A DNA stretch of 34,949 nucleotides, from positions 1 to 34,949 of the forward strand of contig NZ_AVPJ01000022.1 in assembly GCF_000768705.1 (NCBI RefSeq), read 5' to 3'. The DNA is from Knoellia sinensis KCTC 19936. GTDB taxonomy: Bacteria; Actinomycetota; Actinomycetes; Actinomycetales; Dermatophilaceae. The translations under genes and the position numbers were made by a program. The notes beneath the pieces are model-generated. The model worked only from the letters and a program-made list of their open reading frames with translations, was not told the origin of the DNA and made no database searches. This document shows, piece after piece, positions 17,087-26,837 of this stretch. Position 1 is the first letter of the stretch. Every line of letters starts with the position of its first letter.

Positions 17087-17162
17087 CGACTTTGTGCCCC
17101 GTTGGGACACGCGCAGGGAGGCCTTCGGCCAACGCTGCGTGTCCCAACGGGGCACAAAGTCG
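17087..17162. repeat. Intergenic 76-bp palindrome, copy 1
   Basis: Perfect 26-bp arms (17087-17112 and 17137-17162) around a 24-base centre containing GGCCTTCGGCC. The arms start CGACTTTGTGCCCCGTTGGG. It fills most of the gap between the exporter permease stop and the methyltransferase promoter. Three related copies lie at 20858, 24028 and 26532. Confidence 0.95.
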
Positions 17163-17167
17163 GAGAG

Positions 17168-17986
17168 TCAGTCGGCGCGACTCATCGTGCGGAGCCCGAC
17201 GACCAGGCCGAGTGCGGCGACTCCCACCGCTGCCCCGATGCCGGCCAGGACCGTGCCGGCAGGGAAAGTGCCCGCGAACAGGGCGCGTTCGGCCTCGACG
17301 ATGTAGGCCAGCGGGTTGAGGTCCCCGAGGAACCTGAGCCAGCCCGGGGCTCCGTCGTCGATCGGCAGCAGCACGCCGGCGAGCAGCAGCACGGGGAAGA
17401 TCAGGGTCTGTTGCACGGTCCAGAAGATCCAGTCCTGGCCCTTCGACACCAAGGCCAGGGCGAACGACAACGACCCGACGCCCACGGCGAACGTCGCGAT
17501 GATCGCGAGCCCGACGATGACTCCCACAGGGTGCAGGTCGAACGAGAAGGGCGTGACGACCGCGACGATCAGGATGCCCTGGGCAAGGACGGGCACGACC
17601 TCCTTGAGGGCGCGGCCGACGAGCAACGCGGAGCGGCGCAGCGGCGACACGAGCAGCCGTTCGTGAGAGCCCGTGTTCATTTCGAGCGTGAGGTTGGATC
17701 CGGTCATCGAGGCACCCATGAGTGCGGTCATCGCGATGATTCCGGGGACGAACCACTGCAGGGCCGAGCCCGTTCCGACGTCGGGAAGCAGGGGTGCGAA
17801 GAGCGCCAGGAAGACGAGCGGCTGAACCATGGCGAAGAGGATGGACGCCGGTTCGCGGAGCATGGGCTTCAGCTCGCGCGTCATGACGTTCCAGGTGTCG
17901 GCCACGAAGCCGGGCGTGCGGCGCCGGGATTCGGGTCCGGCGGCCATCTCGGTCGCACGAGCGGGGGAGGCCTCGATGGTGGTCAT
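17168..17986 (-). CDS. ABC-2 type exporter permease (DrrB-like)
   Basis: 272 aa with six predicted helices. The ABC-2 signature region is visible: MREP-like cytoplasmic entry (KPMLREPASILFAMVQP), ERLLVSPLRRSALLVGRALKE, and NPLAYIVEAERALF near the end. Such permeases pair with DrrA-like ATPases to export lipophilic drugs, lipids or polyketides. The ATG overlaps the ATPase stop as ATGA. Substrate unknown. Confidence 0.9.
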   Translation of the reverse strand: MTTIEASPARATEMAAGPESRRRTPGFVADTWNVMTRELKPMLREPASILFAMVQPLVFLALFAPLLPDVGTGSALQWFVPGIIAMTALMGASMTGSNLTLEMNTGSHERLLVSPLRRSALLVGRALKEVVPVLAQGILIVAVVTPFSFDLHPVGVIVGLAIIATFAVGVGSLSFALALVSKGQDWIFWTVQQTLIFPVLLLAGVLLPIDDGAPGWLRFLGDLNPLAYIVEAERALFAGTFPAGTVLAGIGAAVGVAALGLVVGLRTMSRAD

Positions 17987-19008
17987 GCCGCTTCTCCTTC
18001 GTCGGTGGTGCTGTCGGTGCTGGTCTGGTTGCTCTCACGCAGGCTGCGCCCGGTGAGGTGGAGGAACACGTCGTCGAGCGTCGCGCTCACGACCTCGATC
18101 CGTTGTGCGGGTGTGCCCGTCGAGGCGAGGTCGGTGACCAGCGATGGGGCGAGGTCGCGTCCATGGGGGACTCGGATGTCGACGCTGGTCCCGGTGGTGG
18201 TGACGGACGCCCCGTCGAGTCGCTCTGCACGCGCCGCTGCCGCCGAGGCGTCCTGCGGTCGTGCGAAGCCGAGCGACACCAGGTCGCCGAGACCGGCCTT
18301 GAGCGCGGTCGCGGTGTCGTCGGCGATGACGAGTCCGTGATCGATGACGATCACACGGTCGGCGATGGCGTCGGCCTCTTCGAGGTAGTGCGTCGTCAGC
18401 ACGATCGTCGTCCCGAGATCACGGTTGAGTCGTCGGACCTGTTCCTGGAGGTTGACCCGATTCTGTGGGTCCAGTCCGGTGGACGGCTCGTCGAGGAACA
18501 TCAGCCGCGGCTGGTGCACGAGGCCGATGGCGACGTCGAGTCGGCGCCGCTGCCCGCCGGACAGGGTCGAAACCGGCCGCATCGCGTGTTCGGTGAGGTC
18601 GAAGGTCTCGAGCAACTCGTCGGCCTGTCGGTTCGCCTCCGACCGCGACAGTCCGTGCGCGCGCGCCTGACTCACAACTTCGTCGCGCCCCCGCTGCTGG
18701 TGGGCCGCCGCGTTGCCCTGGCCCACGTAGCCGATCGACTGGCGCACGGCCCGCTGGTCGCGGACGACGTCGAAGCCGGCGACCTCGGCGGTTCCCGACG
18801 TCGGCGCAATGAGGGTCGTGAGCATGCGAAGGGTGGTCGACTTGCCGGCGCCGTTGGGCCCGAGGAGTGCCACGAGCTCTCCGTCGTGGACCTCGAGGTC
18901 GAGTCCGCGAACGGCCTCGACGGTCTGCTTGCCCCGGGTGAAGGTGCGGGTGAGGGCCGAGGTCCTGATGACCGGGCCGCTGCTCTTCCTGCCTGTTGTG
19001 GTGTCCAT
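17983..19008 (-). CDS. ABC exporter ATPase (DrrA-like)
   Basis: 341 aa. Walker A LLGPNGAGKST, Q-loop GYVGQGNAA, LSGGQRRRLDVAIGL, Walker B LMFLDEPSTGLDPQNR and TTHYLEEAD place it in the DrrA drug-resistance group. The C-terminal ~100 residues (VVSATLDDVFLHLTGRSLRE) are the DUF4162-type region typical of that group. I choose the ATG at 19008 over the GTG at 19017, because a TAGCGT box lies exactly 7 bases before the ATG, giving a leaderless transcript. The gene is divergent from a WYL regulator, with a shared operator between them. Confidence 0.9.
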   Translation of the reverse strand: MDTTTGRKSSGPVIRTSALTRTFTRGKQTVEAVRGLDLEVHDGELVALLGPNGAGKSTTLRMLTTLIAPTSGTAEVAGFDVVRDQRAVRQSIGYVGQGNAAAHQQRGRDEVVSQARAHGLSRSEANRQADELLETFDLTEHAMRPVSTLSGGQRRRLDVAIGLVHQPRLMFLDEPSTGLDPQNRVNLQEQVRRLNRDLGTTIVLTTHYLEEADAIADRVIVIDHGLVIADDTATALKAGLGDLVSLGFARPQDASAAAARAERLDGASVTTTGTSVDIRVPHGRDLAPSLVTDLASTGTPAQRIEVVSATLDDVFLHLTGRSLRESNQTSTDSTTDEGEAA

Positions 19009-19015
19009 GTCGACC

Positions 19016-19064
19016 ACGCTAGGAATTGCTTAGGACAGGTTCTGTCCTCAATCGAATCTAGTCT
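19016..19064. promoter_or_regulatory. Symmetric divergent promoter with central operator
   Basis: The palindrome AGGACAG-GTT-CTGTCCT occupies 19032-19048. The minus-strand -10 box TAGCGT (19016-19021) and the plus-strand -10 box TAGTCT (19059-19064) each lie exactly 10 bases from its edges. Each box is 7 bases from its start codon. The palindrome thus covers the -35 position of both promoters and is a strong candidate binding site for the WYL regulator. Confidence 0.8.
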
Positions 19065-19071
19065 CAAAGAC

Positions 19072-20040
19072 ATGTCGACGAGTGCGCGGATGCTCAGCCT
19101 CCTGTCCCTGCTGCAGACCCACAGGTATTGGCCGGGAGACGAGTTGGCCGCGCGGCTCGATGTGAGCGGGCGGACCCTCCGCCGTGACATCGAGCGACTC
19201 CGGGACCTCGGCTACTCCGTCGACGCCACCCGCGGCGTGGCTGGTGGCTACCAACTTCGAGCGGGTGGGCAGCTTCCACCGCTGCTCCTCGAGGACGATG
19301 AAGCCGTCGCGATCGCGGCCGGCCTGCGCACCTCGGCAGCCGGTTCGGTCGGCGGACTCGAGGAGACCTCGGTGCAGGCACTCGCGAAGGTGGTCGCGCT
19401 CATGCCGCCGCGCTTACGACGCCGGATGGATGCGCTCGCCTCCCAGACAGACTCGCCCGAGCCGTGGTCCAGGGGTCCGACGGTGGATGCCGCGATCCTC
19501 ACGACGCTCGCACAGGCCTGCCGTGACGACGAGTCGATCACCTTCGACTACGTCTCCCGCGATGCGGACTCCACGCATCGGCGGGTCGAGCCGCACCGGC
19601 TCGTCTCCCTGGGTCGTCGGTGGTACCTCGTCGCGTGGGACCGCGACCGCCAGGACTGGCGTTCGTTCCGCGTCGACCGGGTGAGCGAGCCGGGACTGAC
19701 CGGTCAACGCTTCCGCGCGCGGGATCTCCCGACCGAGGACGCCCTCACCTTCGTCCGAGCCGGCTTTCGTGCCATACCGCAGAGGTATGCCGTGCGGGTC
19801 CGCGTGGATGCCCCCGCCGACCGCGTGTCGACGACCGTGGGTCGTTGGGGCGACGTGACACCTGTCGCCGATGACGCGTGCCTCCTGGAGATGAAGGTCG
19901 ACTCGCTCGAGTGGCCGGTCATGCTCCTTGCCTCGCTCGATGCTCCTTTCGCGATCGACGCACCGGACGAACTGCGCTCAGCCTGCGCCGCCGCGGCCGC
20001 CCGCCTCGGAGCAGCTGGCGCCGCACGCACACTCAGGTGA
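19072..20040 (+). CDS. WYL domain transcriptional regulator
   Basis: 322 aa. An N-terminal winged helix (RMLSLLSLLQTHRYWPGDELAARLDVSGRTLRRDIERLRDLG, about 6-47) is followed by a WYL domain (about 140-210, with RRVEPHRLVSLGRRWYLVAWDRDR) and a WCX-like C-terminal region. The WYL fold senses small molecules or nucleic acids. The ATG at 19072 is preceded by TAGTCT at 7 bases, giving a leaderless start. An open frame extends far upstream but runs antisense through the exporter gene, so it is not used. It likely controls the divergent exporter. Its last 8 bases overlap the convergent arginase-fold gene. Confidence 0.92.
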   Translation: MSTSARMLSLLSLLQTHRYWPGDELAARLDVSGRTLRRDIERLRDLGYSVDATRGVAGGYQLRAGGQLPPLLLEDDEAVAIAAGLRTSAAGSVGGLEETSVQALAKVVALMPPRLRRRMDALASQTDSPEPWSRGPTVDAAILTTLAQACRDDESITFDYVSRDADSTHRRVEPHRLVSLGRRWYLVAWDRDRQDWRSFRVDRVSEPGLTGQRFRARDLPTEDALTFVRAGFRAIPQRYAVRVRVDAPADRVSTTVGRWGDVTPVADDACLLEMKVDSLEWPVMLLASLDAPFAIDAPDELRSACAAAAARLGAAGAARTLR

Positions 20041-20830
20041 AGAGCGGTGAGAGTGCTTCGACGAGATCAGCCGCCGTGCGCGATGCCGCTCCTTCGAACT
20101 CGCCCACCTCGAACCCCACGACCTCGGAGCCGGCCGCCGCAGCAGCACAGGCGCGCAGGTCCTCGAAGGTGAGCCCCTCGCTCACGGAGTAGTCCGTGCG
20201 CACGAGGCCCGGCTCGAGGACGTCGCAGTCGAGATGGAAATAGACGGGGCGTCCGTCGATGGCCTCGGCCAGCCGGTCGCCGATCCCGGGGCCGGGGGCG
20301 ACGAAGGCGACGCGACCGGCGTCGAGGTGAGCCTGTTCGGCGGGGTCGATGTCCCGACATCCGACGAGGATCGCCTGGCCCTCCGGCAAGCCTCCACCAA
20401 ACCCTGAGTCCCACCAACCCAACGGACCGGAGAGAGCCATGCCGCCCAGAAATCCGGTGTCACTGTTGTCGGGCACGTTGATGTCGGCGTGCGCGTCGAG
20501 CCAGACCACCACCGCGTCGGGACGGTGACGAAGCACCACCGGCTGGGTGGCGAGGGCCACGGCGCAGCGCGTGATCGCGAGTGCTGGGCGTGCCCCGCTC
20601 GCCAATGCGTCGTCCACCGCACCCGCCATGAGCTGGAGGTCGGCCCGGGCGCGCACGAGTTCCCCGTCCCACCGTTGCGGCTCGGCGGGCCCGGGGGTCC
20701 CAATCACCTGTGGCGCCACGGCAAGTCGCTCGGCCAATGCAGCGGCGACGTCGGGGGACGCGGACATCGCGTGGTCGTTGTGGTCGCCGGCCGGACCGAC
20801 GTAGTTCAGGACCTTCCACGGGGACACCAT
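20033..20830 (-). CDS. Divergent arginase/agmatinase-fold protein
   Basis: 265 aa, ureohydrolase fold. Half the manganese site is intact: DAHADIN and LDCDVLEPG. Two histidines normally conserved are missing. The GGDHS motif is replaced by ITRCA (His to Cys), and the HGM motif by GGM (FLGGMALSG). The C-terminal Glu region reads GFEVGEFEG. A one-metal enzyme, a different hydrolase, or a non-catalytic protein are all possible; arginase or agmatinase activity should not be assumed. It converges with and overlaps the WYL gene by 8 bases. Its start is divergent from leuS, with palindrome copy 2 between them. Confidence 0.8.
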   Translation of the reverse strand: MVSPWKVLNYVGPAGDHNDHAMSASPDVAAALAERLAVAPQVIGTPGPAEPQRWDGELVRARADLQLMAGAVDDALASGARPALAITRCAVALATQPVVLRHRPDAVVVWLDAHADINVPDNSDTGFLGGMALSGPLGWWDSGFGGGLPEGQAILVGCRDIDPAEQAHLDAGRVAFVAPGPGIGDRLAEAIDGRPVYFHLDCDVLEPGLVRTDYSVSEGLTFEDLRACAAAAAGSEVVGFEVGEFEGAASRTAADLVEALSPLFT

Positions 20831-20857
20831 GGGCCATTCTCACACGGGCTTCGTCAC

Positions 20858-20933
20858 CGACTTTGTGCCCCATTGGGACCAGTTTGCGCTCGGCGCACTG
20901 GTGCTGGGACGGTCCCAATGGGGCACAAAGTCG
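20858..20933. repeat. Intergenic 76-bp palindrome, copy 2
   Basis: Perfect 23-bp arms (20858-20880 and 20911-20933). The 30-base centre differs from the other copies and lacks GGCCTTCGGCC. It lies between the divergent arginase-fold and leuS transcription units. Its right end is 15 bases from the leuS -10 box, so it covers the -35 position. Confidence 0.95.
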
Positions 20934-20948
20934 AAGGTGGTTCTGCGA

Positions 20949-20954
20949 TAGTCT
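20949..20954 (+). promoter_or_regulatory. leuS promoter -10 box
   Basis: TAGTCT, identical to the box of the WYL gene, exactly 7 bases before the ATG of the leader peptide. The likely transcription start is that ATG. Confidence 0.65.
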
Positions 20955-20961
20955 TGGCGCG

Positions 20962-20997
20962 ATGTCACGGCAGCTGCTTCTTCCGCAGCCGCGCTGA
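20962..20997 (+). CDS. Leucine-rich leader peptide of leuS
   Basis: 11 codons encoding MSRQLLLPQPR and a stop. Three consecutive leucine codons (CTG CTT CTT) sit in the middle; CTT is a rare choice in such GC-rich DNA. There is no room for a ribosome binding site, and the -10 box spacing implies a leaderless start. An RNA hairpin begins at its stop codon and an intrinsic terminator follows before leuS. This is the layout of ribosome-mediated attenuation: stalling at leucine codons when Leu-tRNA is scarce would favour read-through into leuS. Confidence 0.8.
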   Translation: MSRQLLLPQPR

Positions 20998-21051
20998 CGG
21001 TCCACACAGGACGTCACCGCGGCGAACCCCTCCTGCGCGAGGGGCTTTTTT
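20995..21051 (+). terminator. Attenuator: pause hairpin and intrinsic terminator before leuS
   Basis: The first hairpin pairs TGACGGTCC with GGACGTCA around ACACA (20995-21016, one bulged G) and starts at the leader stop codon. The terminator pairs CCCCTC (21027-21032) with GAGGGG (21039-21044) and is followed by CTTTTTT (21045-21051). A possible antiterminator is CAGGA (21007-21011) with TCCTG (21031-21035), which would break both hairpins. The pairings come from inspection, not folding. Confidence 0.8.
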
Positions 21052-21098
21052 GTGGCCAGAGGCACCGATGACAGAGGCACCGATGAGGCAAGGATGAG

Positions 21099-24014
21099 AT
21101 GAGCGAGACGGCGCACCGTTACACGGCCGAGCTGGCCGACCAGATCGAGCTGGCCTGGCAGGACCGCTGGGAGGAGAGCGGCGTCTTCAACGCGCCCAAC
21201 CCGTCCGGTCCGTTCGCCGACCCCGAGAAGGTCGCCTCCTACGACGGGGGCCACATGCTGGTCCTCGACATGTTCCCGTACCCCAGTGGTGCCGGGCTGC
21301 ATGTCGGACACCCGCTCGGCTACATCGCCACCGACGTCTTCTCGCGCTATCACCGCATGCTCGGCAAGAACGTCCTGCACTGCCTGGGCATGGACGCCTT
21401 CGGCCTGCCGGCGGAGCAGTATGCCGTCCAGACTGGTCAGCATCCGCGCGTCACCACCGAGGCCAACATCGTCATCATGAAGCGGCAGCTGCGTCGCCTC
21501 GGGCTGGGCCTGGACAACCGGCGGGCCATTCGGACGATGGACCCGGAGTACTACCGCTGGACGCAGTGGATCTTCCTCAAGATCTTCAACTCCTGGTACG
21601 ACCGCGAGGCAGTGCGCCCCGACGGTGGCCTCGGGCGCGCGCGCCCCATCACCGAGCTCATCGCCGACTTCGAGTCCGGTGCGCGGGCATTGCCGGACGG
21701 AGACGAGCGTTCCTGGAGTGACCTGAGTGCCGTCGAGCGCGCCGAGGTCATCGACTCCCACCGACTCGCTTATGCCTCCGAGGCTCCCGTGAATTGGGCA
21801 CCCGGCCTCGGGTCGGTCGTGGCCAACGAGGAGGTGACCAACGACGGTCGCTCCGAGCGCGGGAACTTCCCCGTGTTCAAGCGCAACCTGCGCCAGTGGA
21901 TGATGCGCATCACCGACTACTCCGACCGCCTCGCCGACGACCTCGACCGCGTCGAGTGGCCGGAGAAGGTCAAGGCCATGCAGCGCAACTGGATCGGTCG
22001 CAGCCACGGCGCTCGCGTCGCCTTCCAGGTCGTGGGTGCGCCTGACGGCACCGAGCCGATCGAGGTCTTCACGACCCGTCCGGACACCCTTTTCGGCGCG
22101 ACCTTCATGGTCCTCGCTCCGGAGCACCCGCTCGTCGACTCCCTTGTCCCACAGGGGGAGTGGCCGGCAGGCACGAACCCGACCTGGACGGGAGGTGAGG
22201 CGACTCCGGAAGCGAGCGTGACGGCATACCGGCTGGCCGCCTCGCGCAAGAGCGACGTCGAGCGCCAGATGGAGGGCAAGGACAAGACGGGCGTCTTCAC
22301 CGGCGCCTACGCGTCCAACCCGGCCACGGGGACCGAGATCCCGATCTTCATCGCCGACTACGTCCTCATGGGCTATGGCACCGGCGCGATCATGGCGGTG
22401 CCCGGCCAGGACGAGCGTGACTGGCACTTCGCCGATGTCTTCGACCTGCCCAAGATCCGCACGGTCCAGCCGACCGAGGGTCACCCGGAGGACGAGGCGT
22501 TCGGTGGCGAGGGCCCGGCGATCAACTCGGCCAACGACACCCTCGACCTCAACGGCAAGCCGATCGCCGAGGCCAAGGCGGCGATGATCGACTGGCTCGT
22601 CGCGCAGGGCTTCGGCGAGGCCACGGTGAGCTACAAGCTGCGCGACTGGCTGTTCAGCCGTCAGCGCTACTGGGGTGAGCCGTTCCCCATCGTTTTCGAC
22701 ACCGACGGTGTGGCTCACGGTGTGCCCGAGTCGATGTTGCCGATCGAGCTGCCCGAGGTTCCCGACTACAGCCCGCGGACGTTCGACCCCAACGACGCCG
22801 CGAGTGAGCCGGAGCCGCCACTGGGCCGGGTCCGCGAATGGGTCGAGGTGGAGCTCGACCTCGGTGACGGGCGAGGTGTCCAGAAGTACCGCCGCGAGAC
22901 CAACACGATGCCCAACTGGGCCGGGTCGTGCTGGTACCACCTGCGCTACCTCGACCCGGAGAACCACGACGAGCTCGTCTCCGCCGCGACCGAGGAGTAC
23001 TGGGTCGGGCCGCGCGAGACGCCGGTCGCTGGCGCTCCGGCCGGGACGCGCGACCCCGGCGGCGTCGACCTCTATATCGGCGGTGTCGAGCACGCGGTGC
23101 TGCACCTGCTCTATGCCCGCTTCTGGCAGAAGGTGCTGTTCGACCTCGGTCATGTCTCGAGCGAAGAGCCGTTCCGCACGTACTTCTCGCAGGGCTACAT
23201 CCAGGCGCCGGCCTACCGTGACGACCGCGGGCAGCCGGTCGAGGCCTCCGAGGTCGAGGAGTCGGTGGGTGAGGACGGCCAGTCCGCCTTCACGTGGCGG
23301 GGCCAGCCGGTCACTCGGGAGTTCGGCAAGATCGGCAAGTCCCTCAAGAACATGGTGTCGCCGGACGACATGTACGCCGCGTACGGCGCCGACACACTGC
23401 GCCTCTACGAGATGGGCATGGGGCCTCTGGACCAGAGCAAGCCCTGGGACACACGTGCCATCGTCGGCTCGCAGCGCTTCCTGCAACGCCTGTGGCGCAA
23501 CGTCGTCGACGAGGAGACTGGCGAGGTGCGGGTCGTCGACGAGCCCATCGACGACGCGACGTCGCGCATCCTGCACCGGACCATCGACGCGGTCCGCAGG
23601 GACTACGACGAGCTGGGCTTCAACACAGCGATCGCGCGGCTCATCGAGTTCAACAACGCGCTGACCAAGCTCGACGCGGTGCCCCGCGCCGCCGCCGAGC
23701 AGATCGTTCTGATGGTCGCGCCGCTCGCCCCGCACATCGCCGAGGAGTTGTGGAGTCGGCTCGGCCACGCCGAGTCGCTGACGCACGAGGACTTCCCGGT
23801 GGCCGACCCGGCCCTGCTCGTCGAGGACTCGGTGACGTGCGTCGTCCAGATCAAGGGCAAGGTTCGGGACCGCATCGAGGTGCCGTCGGACATCAGCGAG
23901 GACGAGTTGCGTGAGAAGGCACTCGCCCTGCCCAAGGTCGTCGAGGCGACGGCGGGGGGAGTTCGGACGGTCATCGTGCGCGCGCCCAAACTCGTCAACG
24001 TCGTCCCGCTCTGA
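21099..24014 (+). CDS. leuS: Leucyl-tRNA synthetase
   Basis: 971 aa class Ia synthetase that charges tRNA-Leu. The HIGH motif is HVGH (68-71, in [16 protein letters not shown]). The KMSKS motif is KIGKS (744-748), a form seen in actinobacteria. The CP1 editing domain (about 240-430) includes the threonine-rich [12 protein letters not shown] and the aspartate region [15 protein letters not shown]. The tRNA-binding and C-terminal domains are complete ([14 protein letters not shown]). AAGGA precedes the ATG at 21099. It is expressed through the leader and attenuator at 20949-21051. It converges on an AraC gene, with palindrome copy 3 between. Confidence 0.98.
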
Positions 24015-24027
24015 CCGGCGCTTCCTG

Positions 24028-24103
24028 CAACTTTGTGCCCCGGTGGGACACGATGACGGAGGCCTTCGGCCGACGGATCGTGTCCCATTGGCGCACAAAG
24101 TTG
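24028..24103. repeat. Intergenic 76-bp palindrome, copy 3
   Basis: 27-bp arms (24028-24054 and 24077-24103) with three mismatches around a 22-base centre containing GGCCTTCGGCC. The ends are CAACTTT and AAAGTTG, where other copies have CGACTTT and AAAGTCG: a compensated change. It lies between the convergent leuS and AraC genes and may act as a bidirectional RNA hairpin. Confidence 0.93.
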
Positions 24104-24108
24104 GCCGT

Positions 24109-25074
24109 TCAGGCGGGGCGTCGGTCGTCCCGGGAGTTCTTTCGGTATGCCGTGGGGCTGGCTGAGTAGCGCCGCGTGAACGCCGCGCTCAGCGAGAACG
24201 GACTGCTGTAGCCCACGTCGCGGGCCACGGACGCGATCGTGGCATCGGTGTCCCGGAGCAGGTCCGCCGCGAGCGACAGTCGCCACTGGGTGAGGAACGC
24301 CATCGGCGGACTGCCGACCAGCTCGTGAAAGCGGCGTGCGAACGCGGCCCGAGACATCCCGGCCTCGCGGGCGAGCGACTCGACGGTCCATCCACGGGCG
24401 GCGTCGGACTGCATCGCGCGGATCGCTGGTCCCACGAGTTCGTCCTCGGCAGCGAGCCACCACGTGGGGGCGTCGTCGGCGCGGGTGGTGAACCAATGGC
24501 GGAGGGCCTCGATGAGGACGAGGTCGAGCATCCGGTCGAGGACTACGCCCTGCCCAGCCGCGTCCCGGCCGACCTCACCGACGAGGAGGTCGCGCACGGG
24601 TGAGGTCCAGTCGGCGTCCCGGATGACGGCAGTGCGCGGGAGCAGGCCGACCAGAAGGGGCGTGATCTGGCTGGTGAGGTCGTACGCACCGACGAGCGAG
24701 ACCGTCGCATCATCGGCGGTTGCGGCAGTGTTGCCCCACGTCCGGACGCCCATCATCATCTCGTTGACGAGGCTGCGGCCGTCGTCCAGGGCCCAGCAAT
24801 GCTGGTCGGTGTCGACTCGCACCTGTGGCGGGGTGTCGGGGGAGTCGGCGAAGACGTACGGGCGGGGTCCGCGGATGAGCGCGACGTCCCCGGGGTCGAG
24901 ACGGAGCCGTTCGCCGGCGTCGTCGGTGACCCACGCGGTGCCCCTGACGACGGTGATCACCGTCAGCGGCGCCTCGTCCTCGATGCGCACAGCCCACGGT
25001 GGCGCCAGAACGATGCGCAGCAGGAACGCGCCGCGGGCCCTCGGCCCGTCGAGCACAGCGGAGAACGCATCCAT
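24109..25074 (-). CDS. AraC family regulator (cupin N-domain)
   Basis: 321 aa. The N-terminal half looks like the Cupin_6 sensor (RIVLAPPWAVRIEDEAPLTVITVVRGTAWV, LDPGDVALIRGPRPYVFAD). The C-terminal HTH_18 region is complete: WTVESLAREAGMSRAAFARRFHELVGSPPMAFL and a second helix pair ending FTRRYSASPTAYRK. The ATG at 25074 is supported by a TATTCT box 7 bases upstream. It is divergent from an NAD(P)-binding oxidoreductase and a DUF1772 gene. Regulators of this type often control an adjacent oxidoreductase, which is the likely case here. Confidence 0.9.
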   Translation of the reverse strand: MDAFSAVLDGPRARGAFLLRIVLAPPWAVRIEDEAPLTVITVVRGTAWVTDDAGERLRLDPGDVALIRGPRPYVFADSPDTPPQVRVDTDQHCWALDDGRSLVNEMMMGVRTWGNTAATADDATVSLVGAYDLTSQITPLLVGLLPRTAVIRDADWTSPVRDLLVGEVGRDAAGQGVVLDRMLDLVLIEALRHWFTTRADDAPTWWLAAEDELVGPAIRAMQSDAARGWTVESLAREAGMSRAAFARRFHELVGSPPMAFLTQWRLSLAADLLRDTDATIASVARDVGYSSPFSLSAAFTRRYSASPTAYRKNSRDDRRPA

Positions 25075-25081
25075 GTTTTCC

Positions 25082-25087
25082 AGAATA
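25082..25087 (-). promoter_or_regulatory. -10 box of the cupin-AraC gene
   Basis: TATTCT on the minus strand, 7 bases before the ATG at 25074, again a leaderless layout. Confidence 0.55.
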
Positions 25088-25118
25088 GACGCTGACGTAT
25101 GAAACCGAGCACTTGAAC

Positions 25119-25158
25119 CATGGATCGTCCACGACACCTTAGCTGGAATGGATCCATG
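25119..25158. promoter_or_regulatory. Inverted repeat CATGGATC / GATCCATG
   Basis: Perfect 8-bp arms at 25119-25126 and 25151-25158, with centres 32 bp apart, in the AraC/oxidoreductase divergent region. The right arm includes the proposed start codon. It may be an operator for the AraC protein or may occur by chance. Confidence 0.35.
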
Positions 25159-26049
25159 ACCACCACACAGAGTTCGCGACCCTCCCAGCGACGCATGACC
25201 GTTCCCGACCACGCCCCTGACCTGGGGTCCGTCGTCATCCTCGGCGGAGCCGGAAAGACCGGCGCTCGCGTTGCCGCACGCCTCACCGCTCATGGCATCG
25301 AGGCCCGCTTCGCTTCCCGCTCGACCAGTCCGATCTTCGACTGGGACGACCCGACGACCTGGCGCGGTGCGCTGGAAGGCGCGCGGGCGGCATACATCGC
25401 CTATCAACCGGACCTCACGATTCCGGGAGCCGCAGCCGCGATCGGCGCCGTCGCCGGACTTGCGCGGGAGGTCGGTGTCGAGCGTCTCGTGCTCTTGTCC
25501 GGGCGCGGCGAGGATGGAGCTGCTGCGTCCGAGCAGGCCGCTTTCGCGGCCCATCCATACGTGACCGTATGCCGTTGCGCCTGGTTCTCCCAGAACTTCA
25601 CCGAGGGGATGTTCGCCGATGCCCTGCACACCGGGGTCCTCGCGATGTCCGCTCCGGGGGACGTACCGGAACCCTTCCTCGACCTCGATGACCTGGCGGA
25701 TGTCGTGGTGCTGGCCCTGACCGAGGACGGGCACTCGGGCGTCGTCCATGAACTCACGGGCCCCGTATCGGTCACTCTTGTCGAGGCCGTCGGAATCGTC
25801 TCCGCCCTGAGTGGCCGACCCGTCGACTTCGTCCGGGTGAGCGAGGGCGAATTCATCGCAGGAGCGGTCGCGCAAGGACTCGACGAGCCGGCGGCTGCCT
25901 TCCTCGCGGGGATGTTCGAGGAGTTACTCGACGGGCGCAACATCACGCCCGCGACCGGGGTGCGCGAGGCGCTCGGCCGCGAGCCGCGCTCGTTCCACGA
26001 CTGGGCGAAGGACGGTGCGGCGAACGACAGCTGGGGTGGTGCGCGATGA
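25156..26049 (+). CDS. NmrA-like NAD(P)-binding oxidoreductase
   Basis: 297 aa from the chosen start. It has an atypical SDR fold with the cofactor motif VVILGGAGKTGARVAARL, then RLVLLSGRGEDG and a WFSQNFTEGMF stretch typical of NmrA/ergot-like reductases. The classical YxxxK is absent, as in that group. Three in-frame ATGs exist (25120, 25156, 25195); 25156 has GGAATGG upstream. The gene ends in an ATGA overlap with the DUF1772 gene, so the two are co-translated. The divergent AraC gene is the probable regulator. The substrate is unknown. Confidence 0.85.
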   Translation: MTTTQSSRPSQRRMTVPDHAPDLGSVVILGGAGKTGARVAARLTAHGIEARFASRSTSPIFDWDDPTTWRGALEGARAAYIAYQPDLTIPGAAAAIGAVAGLAREVGVERLVLLSGRGEDGAAASEQAAFAAHPYVTVCRCAWFSQNFTEGMFADALHTGVLAMSAPGDVPEPFLDLDDLADVVVLALTEDGHSGVVHELTGPVSVTLVEAVGIVSALSGRPVDFVRVSEGEFIAGAVAQGLDEPAAAFLAGMFEELLDGRNITPATGVREALGREPRSFHDWAKDGAANDSWGGAR

Positions 26050-26516
26050 GCGCCGCCGTCTGGATTCCCGGCGCCACGGCAGTCGCCGGCTCGGTGTTCG
26101 CTGGGGCGATGTTCGCGTTCTCGTCGTTTGTCGTGCCGGGACTGCGGACCCTGTCTGCTCGAGACGGCATCGTCGCCATGCAGGCCTTCAATGCCAAGGC
26201 GCCGCAAAGCCTGCTCGCCCTGCCGATGGGAGGTGTGGCCATCGGGAGCCTCGCCTCCATCGTGACCGCCCTCACGGAGGAGGGTGAAGAAGGTGCGCTT
26301 CTCGTCAGCGGAGGGCTCCTCGGGCTGGCGTCGCTCGTCGTCACCGGAGTGGGGAACGTGCCCGTCAACAACAAGATCGACGCACTCGTCCCGGGTGCGG
26401 AAGCGGCAGGCGAGTGGACGGCATACATGTCGCGGTGGACGACGTGGAACGACGTTCGCACGGTCGCCAGCCTGGGCTCCGCGGTCCTCCTCGCGATCGC
26501 CGCGGCCCGCGCCTGA
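26046..26516 (+). CDS. DUF1772 (anthrone oxygenase-like) membrane protein
   Basis: 156 aa with four hydrophobic segments. DUF1772 hallmarks are visible: an early AGAMFAFSSFVVPGL helix, a middle MQAFN element, VPVNNKIDAL, and WTAYMSRWTTWNDVRT before the last helix. Some fungal members are anthrone oxygenases; most bacterial members have no known role. It overlaps the upstream oxidoreductase by 4 bases (ATGA). The pair with a cupin-AraC regulator looks like an inducible detoxification or redox module (inference). Confidence 0.87.
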   Translation: MSAAVWIPGATAVAGSVFAGAMFAFSSFVVPGLRTLSARDGIVAMQAFNAKAPQSLLALPMGGVAIGSLASIVTALTEEGEEGALLVSGGLLGLASLVVTGVGNVPVNNKIDALVPGAEAAGEWTAYMSRWTTWNDVRTVASLGSAVLLAIAAARA

Positions 26517-26531
26517 AGCCGACCGCGGCCA

Positions 26532-26610
26532 CCCGACTTTGTGCCCCATTGGGACACGCCGTCGGGGCCTTCGGCCGACGGGACGTTTCCCAATGGGGCA
26601 CAAAGTCGGG
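26532..26610. repeat. Intergenic palindrome, copy 4 (79 bp)
   Basis: The arms match for 23 bases from the outer ends (CCCGACTTTGTGCCCC onward), then diverge slightly (ACACGCC against AAACGTCC). The centre contains GGCCTTCGGCC. It starts 15 bases after the DUF1772 stop and precedes the promoter of the riboswitch transcript. Confidence 0.93.
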
Positions 26611-26679: not shown

Positions 26680-26793
26680 GGTCACGAGTACCAGCGCATA
26701 GCCCCGGCTTGCTGGTCGGCAACCCTCCTCCGCGGTGGGGTGCTCCGGGTGACGACCTGGTCGGCTGCAGCAACGCAGTTGGCAAGCGCGGAC
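26680..26793 (+). ncRNA. SAM-IV type riboswitch
   Basis: The sequence follows the actinobacterial SAM-IV aptamer. The 5' strand GGTCACGAGTACCAGC is followed by CCCCGGCTTGCTGGTCGG with the ACCAGC/GCTGGT helix, then GGCAACCCTCC, GCGGTGGGGTGCTCCGGG and the closing GACGACC. A 3' segment with GCTGC/GCAG pairing ends in GGCAAGCGCGG, which is diagnostic for SAM-IV against SAM-I. It lies 45 bases upstream of the PLP enzyme gene and implies control by S-adenosylmethionine. The aptamer's GGTGCTCC is complementary to the ribosome binding region GGAGCACC (26828-26835). Recognition is from memory of the consensus, without a covariance search. Confidence 0.88.
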
Positions 26794-26837
26794 TCGCGAG
26801 CACCTCGAGGGTCCACTGACTCTCCAGGGAGCACCAG

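Follow-up and report, generated by a model that had tools for sequence, protein, structure and literature searches.

A dispersed palindrome family in Knoellia and its candidate partner, an AbiEi-like gene flanked by the same arms

The window analyzed here, the entire 34,949-base contig C15 of Knoellia sinensis (genome G000; 3.99 Mb in 61 contigs; Intrasporangiaceae under the NCBI taxonomy), carries four intergenic palindromes that belong to a family dispersed through the genome. At another locus of G000, outside the window (C5:77005–78478), the same arms lie on both sides of a 351-amino-acid reading frame; we name this gene (C5:77158–78210), cognate to the window palindromes, and its homologs of about 350 amino acids, RAN. 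With moderate confidence, and from sequence evidence, we propose that the palindromes are non-autonomous elements resembling REPINs (inverted pairs of repetitive extragenic palindromic, REP, sequences), the arm of which would be the recognition unit of RAN, a dedicated AbiEi-type protein.

A genome-wide family of palindromes

The arm 12-mer ACTTTGTGCSCC, allowing up to one mismatch, occurs 81 + 76 times in G000, far above the 3 + 6 occurrences of the reversed pattern, and the palindromes are thus not products of chance. A covariance model built from 24 G000 copies (R1) matched 144 of the 150 candidates scored over both strands, equivalent to about 72 palindromes, and 74 copies were paired as inverted arms in the stretches fetched from G000 (48 of 74–77 bp and 26 of 61–65 bp). 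The preliminary description of the window had pointed to such a whole-genome search from its four copies, and many further copies exist. The window palindromes are inverted pairs of a 22–26-bp arm around a variable center of about 18–30 nt. The arm follows the pattern CGACTTTGTGCCCC-nnn-GGGAC(AC) and, as read from the window copies, is itself near-palindromic (GTGyCCCAwTGGGrCAC).

Arms in G000 also occur singly or as direct arrays, with few single words against about 75 pairs per genome. Two or three arms spaced 32–33 bp apart are found on contigs C12 and C10, and at C61:46675–47056 (L031:4674–5059) a palindrome is followed by six more arms at an exact 54-bp period, an array that is a local tandem amplification. 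A different arrangement occurs in G007 (C1:4117408–4118051, L161), where four tandem duplications with steps of 181–207 bp each place a palindrome straight after a repeated gene end terminating in TGA.

Uptake words, as in Neisseria, can form terminator-like inverted pairs at gene ends (described in PMC2267715), and the Knoellia palindromes might be DNA uptake sequences of this kind. We give this reading almost no credence: copy number and anatomy (inverted pairs far outnumbering single words, and arms of 22–26 bp) argue against it, as does a dedicated, bracketed gene.

The arms remain complementary

In the alignment of 24 copies, pairing holds for 95.8% of cells, compared with 90.0% after shuffling; 8 of 25 pairs are changed on both sides, and the covariation score reaches 0.175, compared with 0.074 for shuffled alignments (0 of 500 shuffles). 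Because the copies were found through the arm sequence, covariation is tested fairly at positions beyond the 14-nt seed used in the search. There, arm bases 15 and 16 are each complementary in 71 of the 74 copies (shuffled means 45.1 and 40.1); for bases 24 and 25 the counts are 52 and 58 copies, respectively (30.8 and 34.1). In a cross-genus set of 28 palindromes, 15 of 18 pairs are changed on both sides, a figure biased toward pairing by the many members that were found as hairpins.

With more copies aligned, the arms do covary, and the 24-copy, 74-copy and cross-genus comparisons agree with the earlier proposal that the folded form is kept. The accompanying statement that both arms usually change together describes the common case across copies and is not universal; window copy 3 departs from it, with one C–C mismatch and G–T pairs. 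Co-changing arms fit selection for the fold and hairpin-templated copying alike, as both would produce them.

Copies lie just past stop codons

Gene setting was taken from a simple codon-usage gene caller, which placed 68 of the 74 copies; four copies "inside" called genes and two at stretch ends were left out of the position counts. One tandem copy, L032:8348, adjoins RAN, which the caller missed, and its distances are therefore wrong. The placed copies comprise 30 in tandem, 29 in convergent and 9 in divergent settings, where the intergenic bases of the same stretches would predict 60%, 14% and 26%, respectively. The convergent excess is significant both against the 14% of intergenic bases (p = 6.5e-9) and against the 18% of junctions that are convergent (p = 3.9e-6). 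Among tandem copies, 26 of 30 lie at most 25 nt past a stop codon (median 7 nt), whereas uniform placement within those gaps puts 7.8 copies in this range on average and never more than 15 in 10,000 trials. Both stops lie within 25 nt of the palindrome in 19 of the 29 convergent gaps. From this placement, the copies probably act as two-way 3'-end hairpins that would end or shield transcripts.

Such placement raises the possibility that the palindromes are plain bidirectional terminators or 3'-end stabilizers, homogenized by recombination or hairpin-templated repair, with RAN merely incidental among them. Their position right past stops and between convergent genes, the complementary arms and the strong folds (predicted single-strand energies of −55.3 to −64.4 kcal/mol for the four window palindromes on the + strand) would all suit this explanation. 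No T-run follows any of the four window hairpins, however, and the nine copies between divergent genes do not suit it, nor do the direct arm arrays around RAN, which a terminator does not need. Together with the bracketing of RAN and its co-occurrence with palindromes over 21 genera, presented below, these observations lead us to regard plain terminators as distinctly unlikely.

Gain, loss and copying

Sixteen G000 loci were compared with relatives; five had no alignable relative, and the remaining 11, with alignable flanks on both sides, gave 35 junction-by-genome comparisons. With an empty junction defined as a gap at least 40 nt shorter and lacking a hairpin of 15 bp or more, 25 of the 35 comparisons are empty, two hold a palindrome in G007 (with G007-type arms) and eight are undecided. 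For instance, a gap of 82 nt measures 1 nt in G006, and one of 103 nt measures 10 nt in both G003 and G008. Three of the empty comparisons fall in gaps above 400 nt and are weaker. At least one empty ortholog was found at 10 of the 11 comparable loci, and an additional occupied ortholog, with G004-type arms, is present in G004 (L122:3314). Empty sites at matching junctions, which the preliminary description had proposed to look for, are therefore common. Whole elements appear to have been copied, since one 18-nt center is common to seven dispersed G000 copies, the closest pair of which is 98% identical.

The earlier suggestion of a REP- or MITE-like element (MITE, miniature inverted-repeat transposable element) moved in trans is borne out with respect to the many copies, their mostly species-specific occupancy and the empty sites, but not with respect to a RAYT (REP-associated tyrosine transposase). 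A profile search for Y1_Tnp (PF01797) found no match in G000 or in any of the nine Knoellia genomes, while a control search was positive in 5 of 14 genomes, and a RAYT/IS200 origin was rejected on these empty searches in the genome and its genus. More broadly, usual REPs or REPINs moved by a RAYT (an HUH Y1 transposase), or MITEs of a lost insertion sequence, would share the architecture, copy number, position and missing target duplication seen here. Given the empty searches and a tag consensus of CGACTTnnTGC rather than GTAG, this explanation is contradicted in this genus, and we consider it very improbable.

RAN, an AbiEi-like gene

RAN homologs are present in all nine Knoellia genomes at 1e-10, in one or two copies each, and in 79 of 186 genomes of the wider family at E ≤ 1e-25. 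RAN is a protein-coding frame: differences between species fall mostly at third codon positions (for example 74, 71 and 172 between G000 and G007), and codon use is unusual, as the codon-usage caller misses or truncates RAN in Knoellia. Residues 12–178 of the G000 protein match the PADLOC AbiEi model PDLC02228 at 5e-10; this model matches all 16 aligned homologs at E ≤ 1 (best 2.7e-18), and Pfam AbiEi_4 matches four of the 16 at the same threshold. A Pfam and NCBIfam search with the G000 protein alone gave no match.

Residues E201, D234, E245, D247 and K251 are invariant in 27 aligned RAN proteins and are followed by a Cys motif in a Cys-rich tail. This pattern resembles that of DUF559/Vsr-type PD-(D/E)XK nucleases, and the C-terminal half may, very tentatively, be compatible with such a nuclease.

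Among ten neighboring genes scanned in all at four RAN loci, which include genes for a kinase, MoxR, phosphoribosyl pyrophosphate synthetase and phosphate transport, none encodes DUF1814 (AbiEii); a neighboring ATP-binding cassette (ABC) ATPase matches the generic AAA_21 model, the title of which names AbiEii. Judged by shared flanks, RAN occupies a single locus in 18 genomes spanning several genera and two more loci in Knoellia, with the RAN genes of G006, G002 and G204 unlinked to these; so few fixed loci indicate mainly vertical descent. Of 36 viral contig stretches matching a peptide pattern, none encodes a RAN relative, and 72,556 plasmid records gave two weak homolog matches, annotated as a hypothetical protein and an AbiEi-family antitoxin. 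In G008 the C5-type RAN (C4:51511–52550; L275, L280) is split over two frames while the genome retains many palindromes, which may thus outlive their partner.

Repeats bracket RAN

In Knoellia, RAN is flanked mostly by direct arrays of arms at steps of 31–36 bp (commonly 33), with the tags outward on both sides; at G004:C1 palindromes take the place of these arrays. The flanking arm varies with species and paralog: CGACTTCGTGCCCCGCACGGACA in G007 (five units left and five right), CGACTTCTTGCCCCAACGCGCCACG at G004:C32 (14 units on one side) and CACTGATTGCCCGTTCGGCCAGTG in G005 (nine and five units). Outside Knoellia, the flanks mostly hold palindromes of 73 bp in which the tag is similar and the core differs, as seen on both sides in G186, G083, G204 and G181, and three loci carry 82–83-bp tandem units instead. 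Over 28 aligned palindromes, the tag consensus is CGACTTnnTGC, with variants such as ACTTCTGGCC. No tag-pattern repeats were seen at RAN in G166, G084, G013 and G176, of which G013 and G084 pass the alignment test described next.

This bracket test scores local inverted similarity between the 450 nt to the left and to the right of a gene, with z > 6 as a pass. It is passed by 27 of the 33 strong RAN loci fetched and by none of 82 random G000 genes. Where the preliminary description had envisaged a RAYT-type or insertion-sequence transposase with matching ends, no RAYT is present; the idea holds in spirit, in that the flanks of RAN carry the same arms, and RAN would then be the candidate mover. 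An interim view of RAN as incidental, formed because the paralog at C59 lacks G000-type arms, was overturned when C59 proved to have an arm type of its own.

Linking RAN to the dispersed palindromes

Sequence match was assessed with 44 dispersed palindromes hand-picked from the fetched loci of 20 genomes, only seven of them from G000. With ties shared, the best-matching RAN-flanking arm comes from the palindrome's own genome in 24.3 of 44 cases, against 2.2 with shuffled labels (0 of 5000), and in 22.5 of 44 when the 13 positions after the tag are used. Outside Knoellia, positions 12–24 give 7.5 of 12 against 0.6.

Co-occurrence was assessed with a second model, R2, built from 28 palindromes (14 of them RAN-flanking) and run on 59 chosen genomes of the family. 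Genomes with RAN at E < 1e-60 were classed as RAN-strong, G188, the 23rd such genome outside Knoellia, being left out of the search; the set lacking a homolog at 1e-25 comprised 15 reasonably complete genomes out of 107. Of the 31 RAN-strong genomes, 28 had tagged palindromes, as did 2 of the 7 mid-strength genomes (both of genus g25; g68 gave 0 of 5), 0 of 6 with weak homologs only and 0 of 15 without a homolog; counted by genus, all 7 strong genera had them and none of the 14 others did. As R2 is tied to the CGACTT tag, its zeros leave room for palindromes of other kinds. R2 matches number from 29 to at least 83 per genome in the nine Knoellia genomes (both strands), counts above about eight were obtained in these nine and in 12 other genomes (one of them mid-strength), and at least 11 genomes outside Knoellia have palindromes far from RAN.

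Within Knoellia, arm type goes with RAN type. The R1 arm type gives 49 to at least 83 matches in the five species that have a RAN of the C5 type (including the broken copy of G008) and 0, 1, 11 and 14 in the four Knoellia species without one. An apparent absence of palindromes from G001, suggested by the R1 count, was an effect of the arm of R1, as R2 finds 60 matches there. Over 27 RAN proteins, identity correlates with arm similarity (Mantel r = 0.47; 0 of 5000 permutations), and kinship by itself can account for part of this correlation. The two G000 paralogs are 56% identical and carry unlike arms (9 of 13 positions), whereas the second G000 copy is 77% identical to RAN of G005 and their arms are alike at 13 of 13 positions.

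Co-divergence of this kind would also be expected if RAN were a DNA-binding regulator or nucleoid protein without nuclease activity, the palindromes being selected operators or insulators that multiplied by ordinary duplication. The AbiEi-like N-terminal region fits this alternative, as AbiEi is an antitoxin reported to bind a pair of 23-bp inverted repeats close to the gene that encodes it (PMC7319586); so do the direct arrays, which resemble protein-binding arrays, and the strict position past stops. Operators would nevertheless be expected upstream of genes, where the 9 of 68 divergent copies are a small minority, and elements with identical centers at unrelated sites, occupancy that is mostly species-specific where comparable, and invariant residues that hint at catalysis do not agree with it. 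On this evidence we judge a purely regulatory role unlikely.

Several observations weigh against RAN as the dedicated partner of REPIN-like elements. Of the 33 strong RAN loci, six do not pass the bracket test; contig ends truncate two of these, and a third, G176, is interrupted by an in-frame stop. For about 20 of the 44 palindromes (ties shared), the flanking arm of another genome matches as well or better; the misses comprise all five palindromes of G006, both of G003, the only one of G002, two each of G000 and G004, and one each of G005, G008, G187, G172, G167 and G171. Three RAN-strong genomes (G166, G190 and G084) lack tagged palindromes; with half of the R2 set taken from RAN flanks, counts up to about eight per genome could reflect flanking copies alone; and because the genomes are related, the counts are not independent. 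One genome of another genus, G029, has an R1 palindrome (L070:484–548, near a contig end) and no homolog at 1e-25, perhaps through transfer or contamination. Target duplications are not apparent, as direct flank repeats of 4 nt occur at 1 of the 74 copies, compared with a shuffled mean of 1.7, and repeats of at least 5 nt at none; and RAN stays at few fixed loci, unlike an active transposon. Regarding the nuclease-like half, DUF559 matches 1 of 16 RAN proteins at E = 0.0053, under its cut-off, the restriction-endonuclease model REase_MTES_1575 (PF18741) matches one at E 0.05, and no relative was found in the PDB by sequence. Finally, bracketing extends to more distant homologs and belongs to a wider family, not to RAN alone, as described below.

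Taking these points into account, we still favor REPIN-like elements recognized by RAN and propose the following mechanism. The AbiEi-like N-terminal part of RAN would bind the arm, in the manner of AbiEi on its repeats, and the nuclease-like C-terminal part would cut at arm pairs, perhaps in an extruded or single-stranded hairpin, the weakest step of the scheme. Repair or copying would then place new palindromes elsewhere without target duplication, as the empty sites and shared centers suggest. Copies persist chiefly just past stop codons, where the hairpin could terminate or shield transcripts arriving from either direction. The sequences of RAN and of the arms diverge jointly, as the correlation indicates, and lineages would thereby come to have their own arms.

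A wider family of bracketed AbiEi-like genes

Stand-alone AbiEi-like proteins with a nuclease-like C-terminus are common in Actinomycetota. At the level of the order, 24 of 396 genomes encode a RAN homolog at E ≤ 1e-40, nine of them from other families. Twelve mid-strength loci were scored, ten in other families and two in G145 of g68, and nine of them pass the bracket test, with bracketing repeats entirely different in sequence: 75-bp palindromes on both sides at L357, 60–61-bp palindromes at L359 and 22-bp arrays of six and three units at L355 (G145). Distant AbiEi-like homologs in Knoellia were considered as negative controls while an exact-word count implied few repeats, and were rejected in this role because the alignment test brackets 9 of 13.

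Because 9 of 12 mid-strength and 9 of 13 distant loci are bracketed, against none of the random genes, these proteins might form a large, non-HUH, repeat-associated class, each recognizing, copying and keeping palindromes specific to its lineage, and so represent a second, independent invention resembling the REPIN–RAYT system. This reading is tentative, and we place it a little short of an even chance.

The window palindromes and their surroundings

Sequence inspection bears out the positions of the four window palindromes, the center GGCCTTCGGCC shared by copies 1, 3 and 4, and, by our own gene caller, the tandem (copies 1 and 4), divergent (copy 2) and convergent (copy 3) intergenic settings given for them; none is assigned a strand. 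Copy 1 (17087–17162, 76 bp), with arms 17087–17112 and 17137–17162 complementary at 26 of 26 positions, lies 5 nt past the stop of an ABC permease gene (17168–17986, − strand). Copy 2 (20858–20933, 76 bp), with a different center and arms 20858–20880 and 20911–20933 complementary at 23 of 23 positions, is flanked by divergent genes encoding an arginase-family protein (20033–20830, − strand) and LeuS (leuS, 21099–24014, + strand). The LeuS protein is 93% identical to that of K. subterranea and 86% to that of K. aerolata. Copy 3 (24028–24103, 76 bp; arms 24028–24054 and 24077–24103, 89% complementary) occupies the convergent gap from the leuS stop to the stop of an AraC-type regulator gene, at 13 and 5 nt from these stops, respectively. 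Copy 4 (26532–26610; core 26534–26608, 75 bp) begins its core 17 nt past the stop of gene 26046–26516 and precedes a SAM-IV (S-adenosylmethionine) riboswitch at 26680–26794 (Rfam, 113 bits), which lies between copy 4 and the next + strand gene; copy 4 could shield this riboswitch against upstream transcripts. At Rfam gathering thresholds the riboswitch is the sole match in the window, the palindromes matching no family.

In sister species, draft contigs (G006:C13, G008:C1 and G004:C42) end no more than a few hundred bases from leuS, close to the places that hold palindromes in G000, and hairpins or repeats may be the cause. Elsewhere in G000, further families of long hairpins have other arms: GAACTCACCCAATTGGACGG at L143:6619–6701 and L145:689–763, and AGTCGAGAGTAGG at L133:2046–2108 and L140:10410–10478. 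A long hairpin at L040:887–956 has the arm CGAGCGAGCCAAGAGTTGG and has a 12-mer in common with sequence flanking a distant gene of AbiEi-like type (L043), which is possibly this hairpin's own partner.

Relation to known systems and implications

In REPtrons, REP and REPIN sequences are described as dispersed, intergenic, tagged hairpins of two inverted units that number from tens to hundreds and lie mostly in tandem and convergent gene settings, and RAYTs (TnpA-REP) as present in few copies, vertically inherited and flanked by cognate repeats (PMC8049555, PMC3733652). The Knoellia palindromes are likewise many, dispersed, extragenic and built of two inverted units, and RAN, by analogy, is a partner flanked by cognate repeats and, like RAYT (PMC8049555), inherited mainly vertically. 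They differ in that RAN combines an AbiEi-like region with a nuclease-like C-terminal one and is not an HUH/Y1 protein, the tag is CGACTTnnTGC as opposed to GTAG (or CGTC), and the arms measure 22–26 bp. The CGTC-tagged REPs and TIRtrons described in 2013 (PMC3733652) likewise comprise tagged palindromes lacking a RAYT of their own and terminal repeats around a gene; the TIRtrons encode tyrosine transposases, whereas a dedicated non-tyrosine partner is proposed here.

RAN resembles AbiE type IV toxin–antitoxin systems in its N-terminal part and in an arm close in length to the AbiEi repeat (PMC7319586). Its repeats, by contrast, lie on both sides of the gene and are dispersed through the genome, it has additional nuclease-like and Cys-rich C-terminal parts, and no AbiEii gene was among the neighbors scanned. 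As with MITEs, the palindromes are short, coding-free inverted-repeat elements with ends common to a gene-bearing unit; unlike MITEs, they lack target duplication, and the RAN unit is not a recognized transposon and hardly moves. Titles and abstracts of open-licence PMC articles yielded no account of AbiEi/DUF559 genes with flanking repeats or of the Knoellia palindromes.

Families of REP-like palindromes for which no mover is known remain a puzzle; in the 2013 survey of tagged palindromes, one superfamily was described as apparently lacking a dedicated transposase (PMC3733652). RAN, singled out by sequence match, co-occurrence and co-divergence, is a candidate partner for a RAYT-less family. 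The match between the dispersed arms and the repeats around this gene suggests a gene-plus-repeat system that had gone unnoticed and that would copy or maintain such palindromes. If this proposal is correct, the combination of dispersed palindromes with one dedicated, mainly vertically inherited protein would have arisen more than once, poorly annotated AbiEi-like actinobacterial genes would gain a testable role, and diverged pairs of protein and site would serve to decipher the recognition code.

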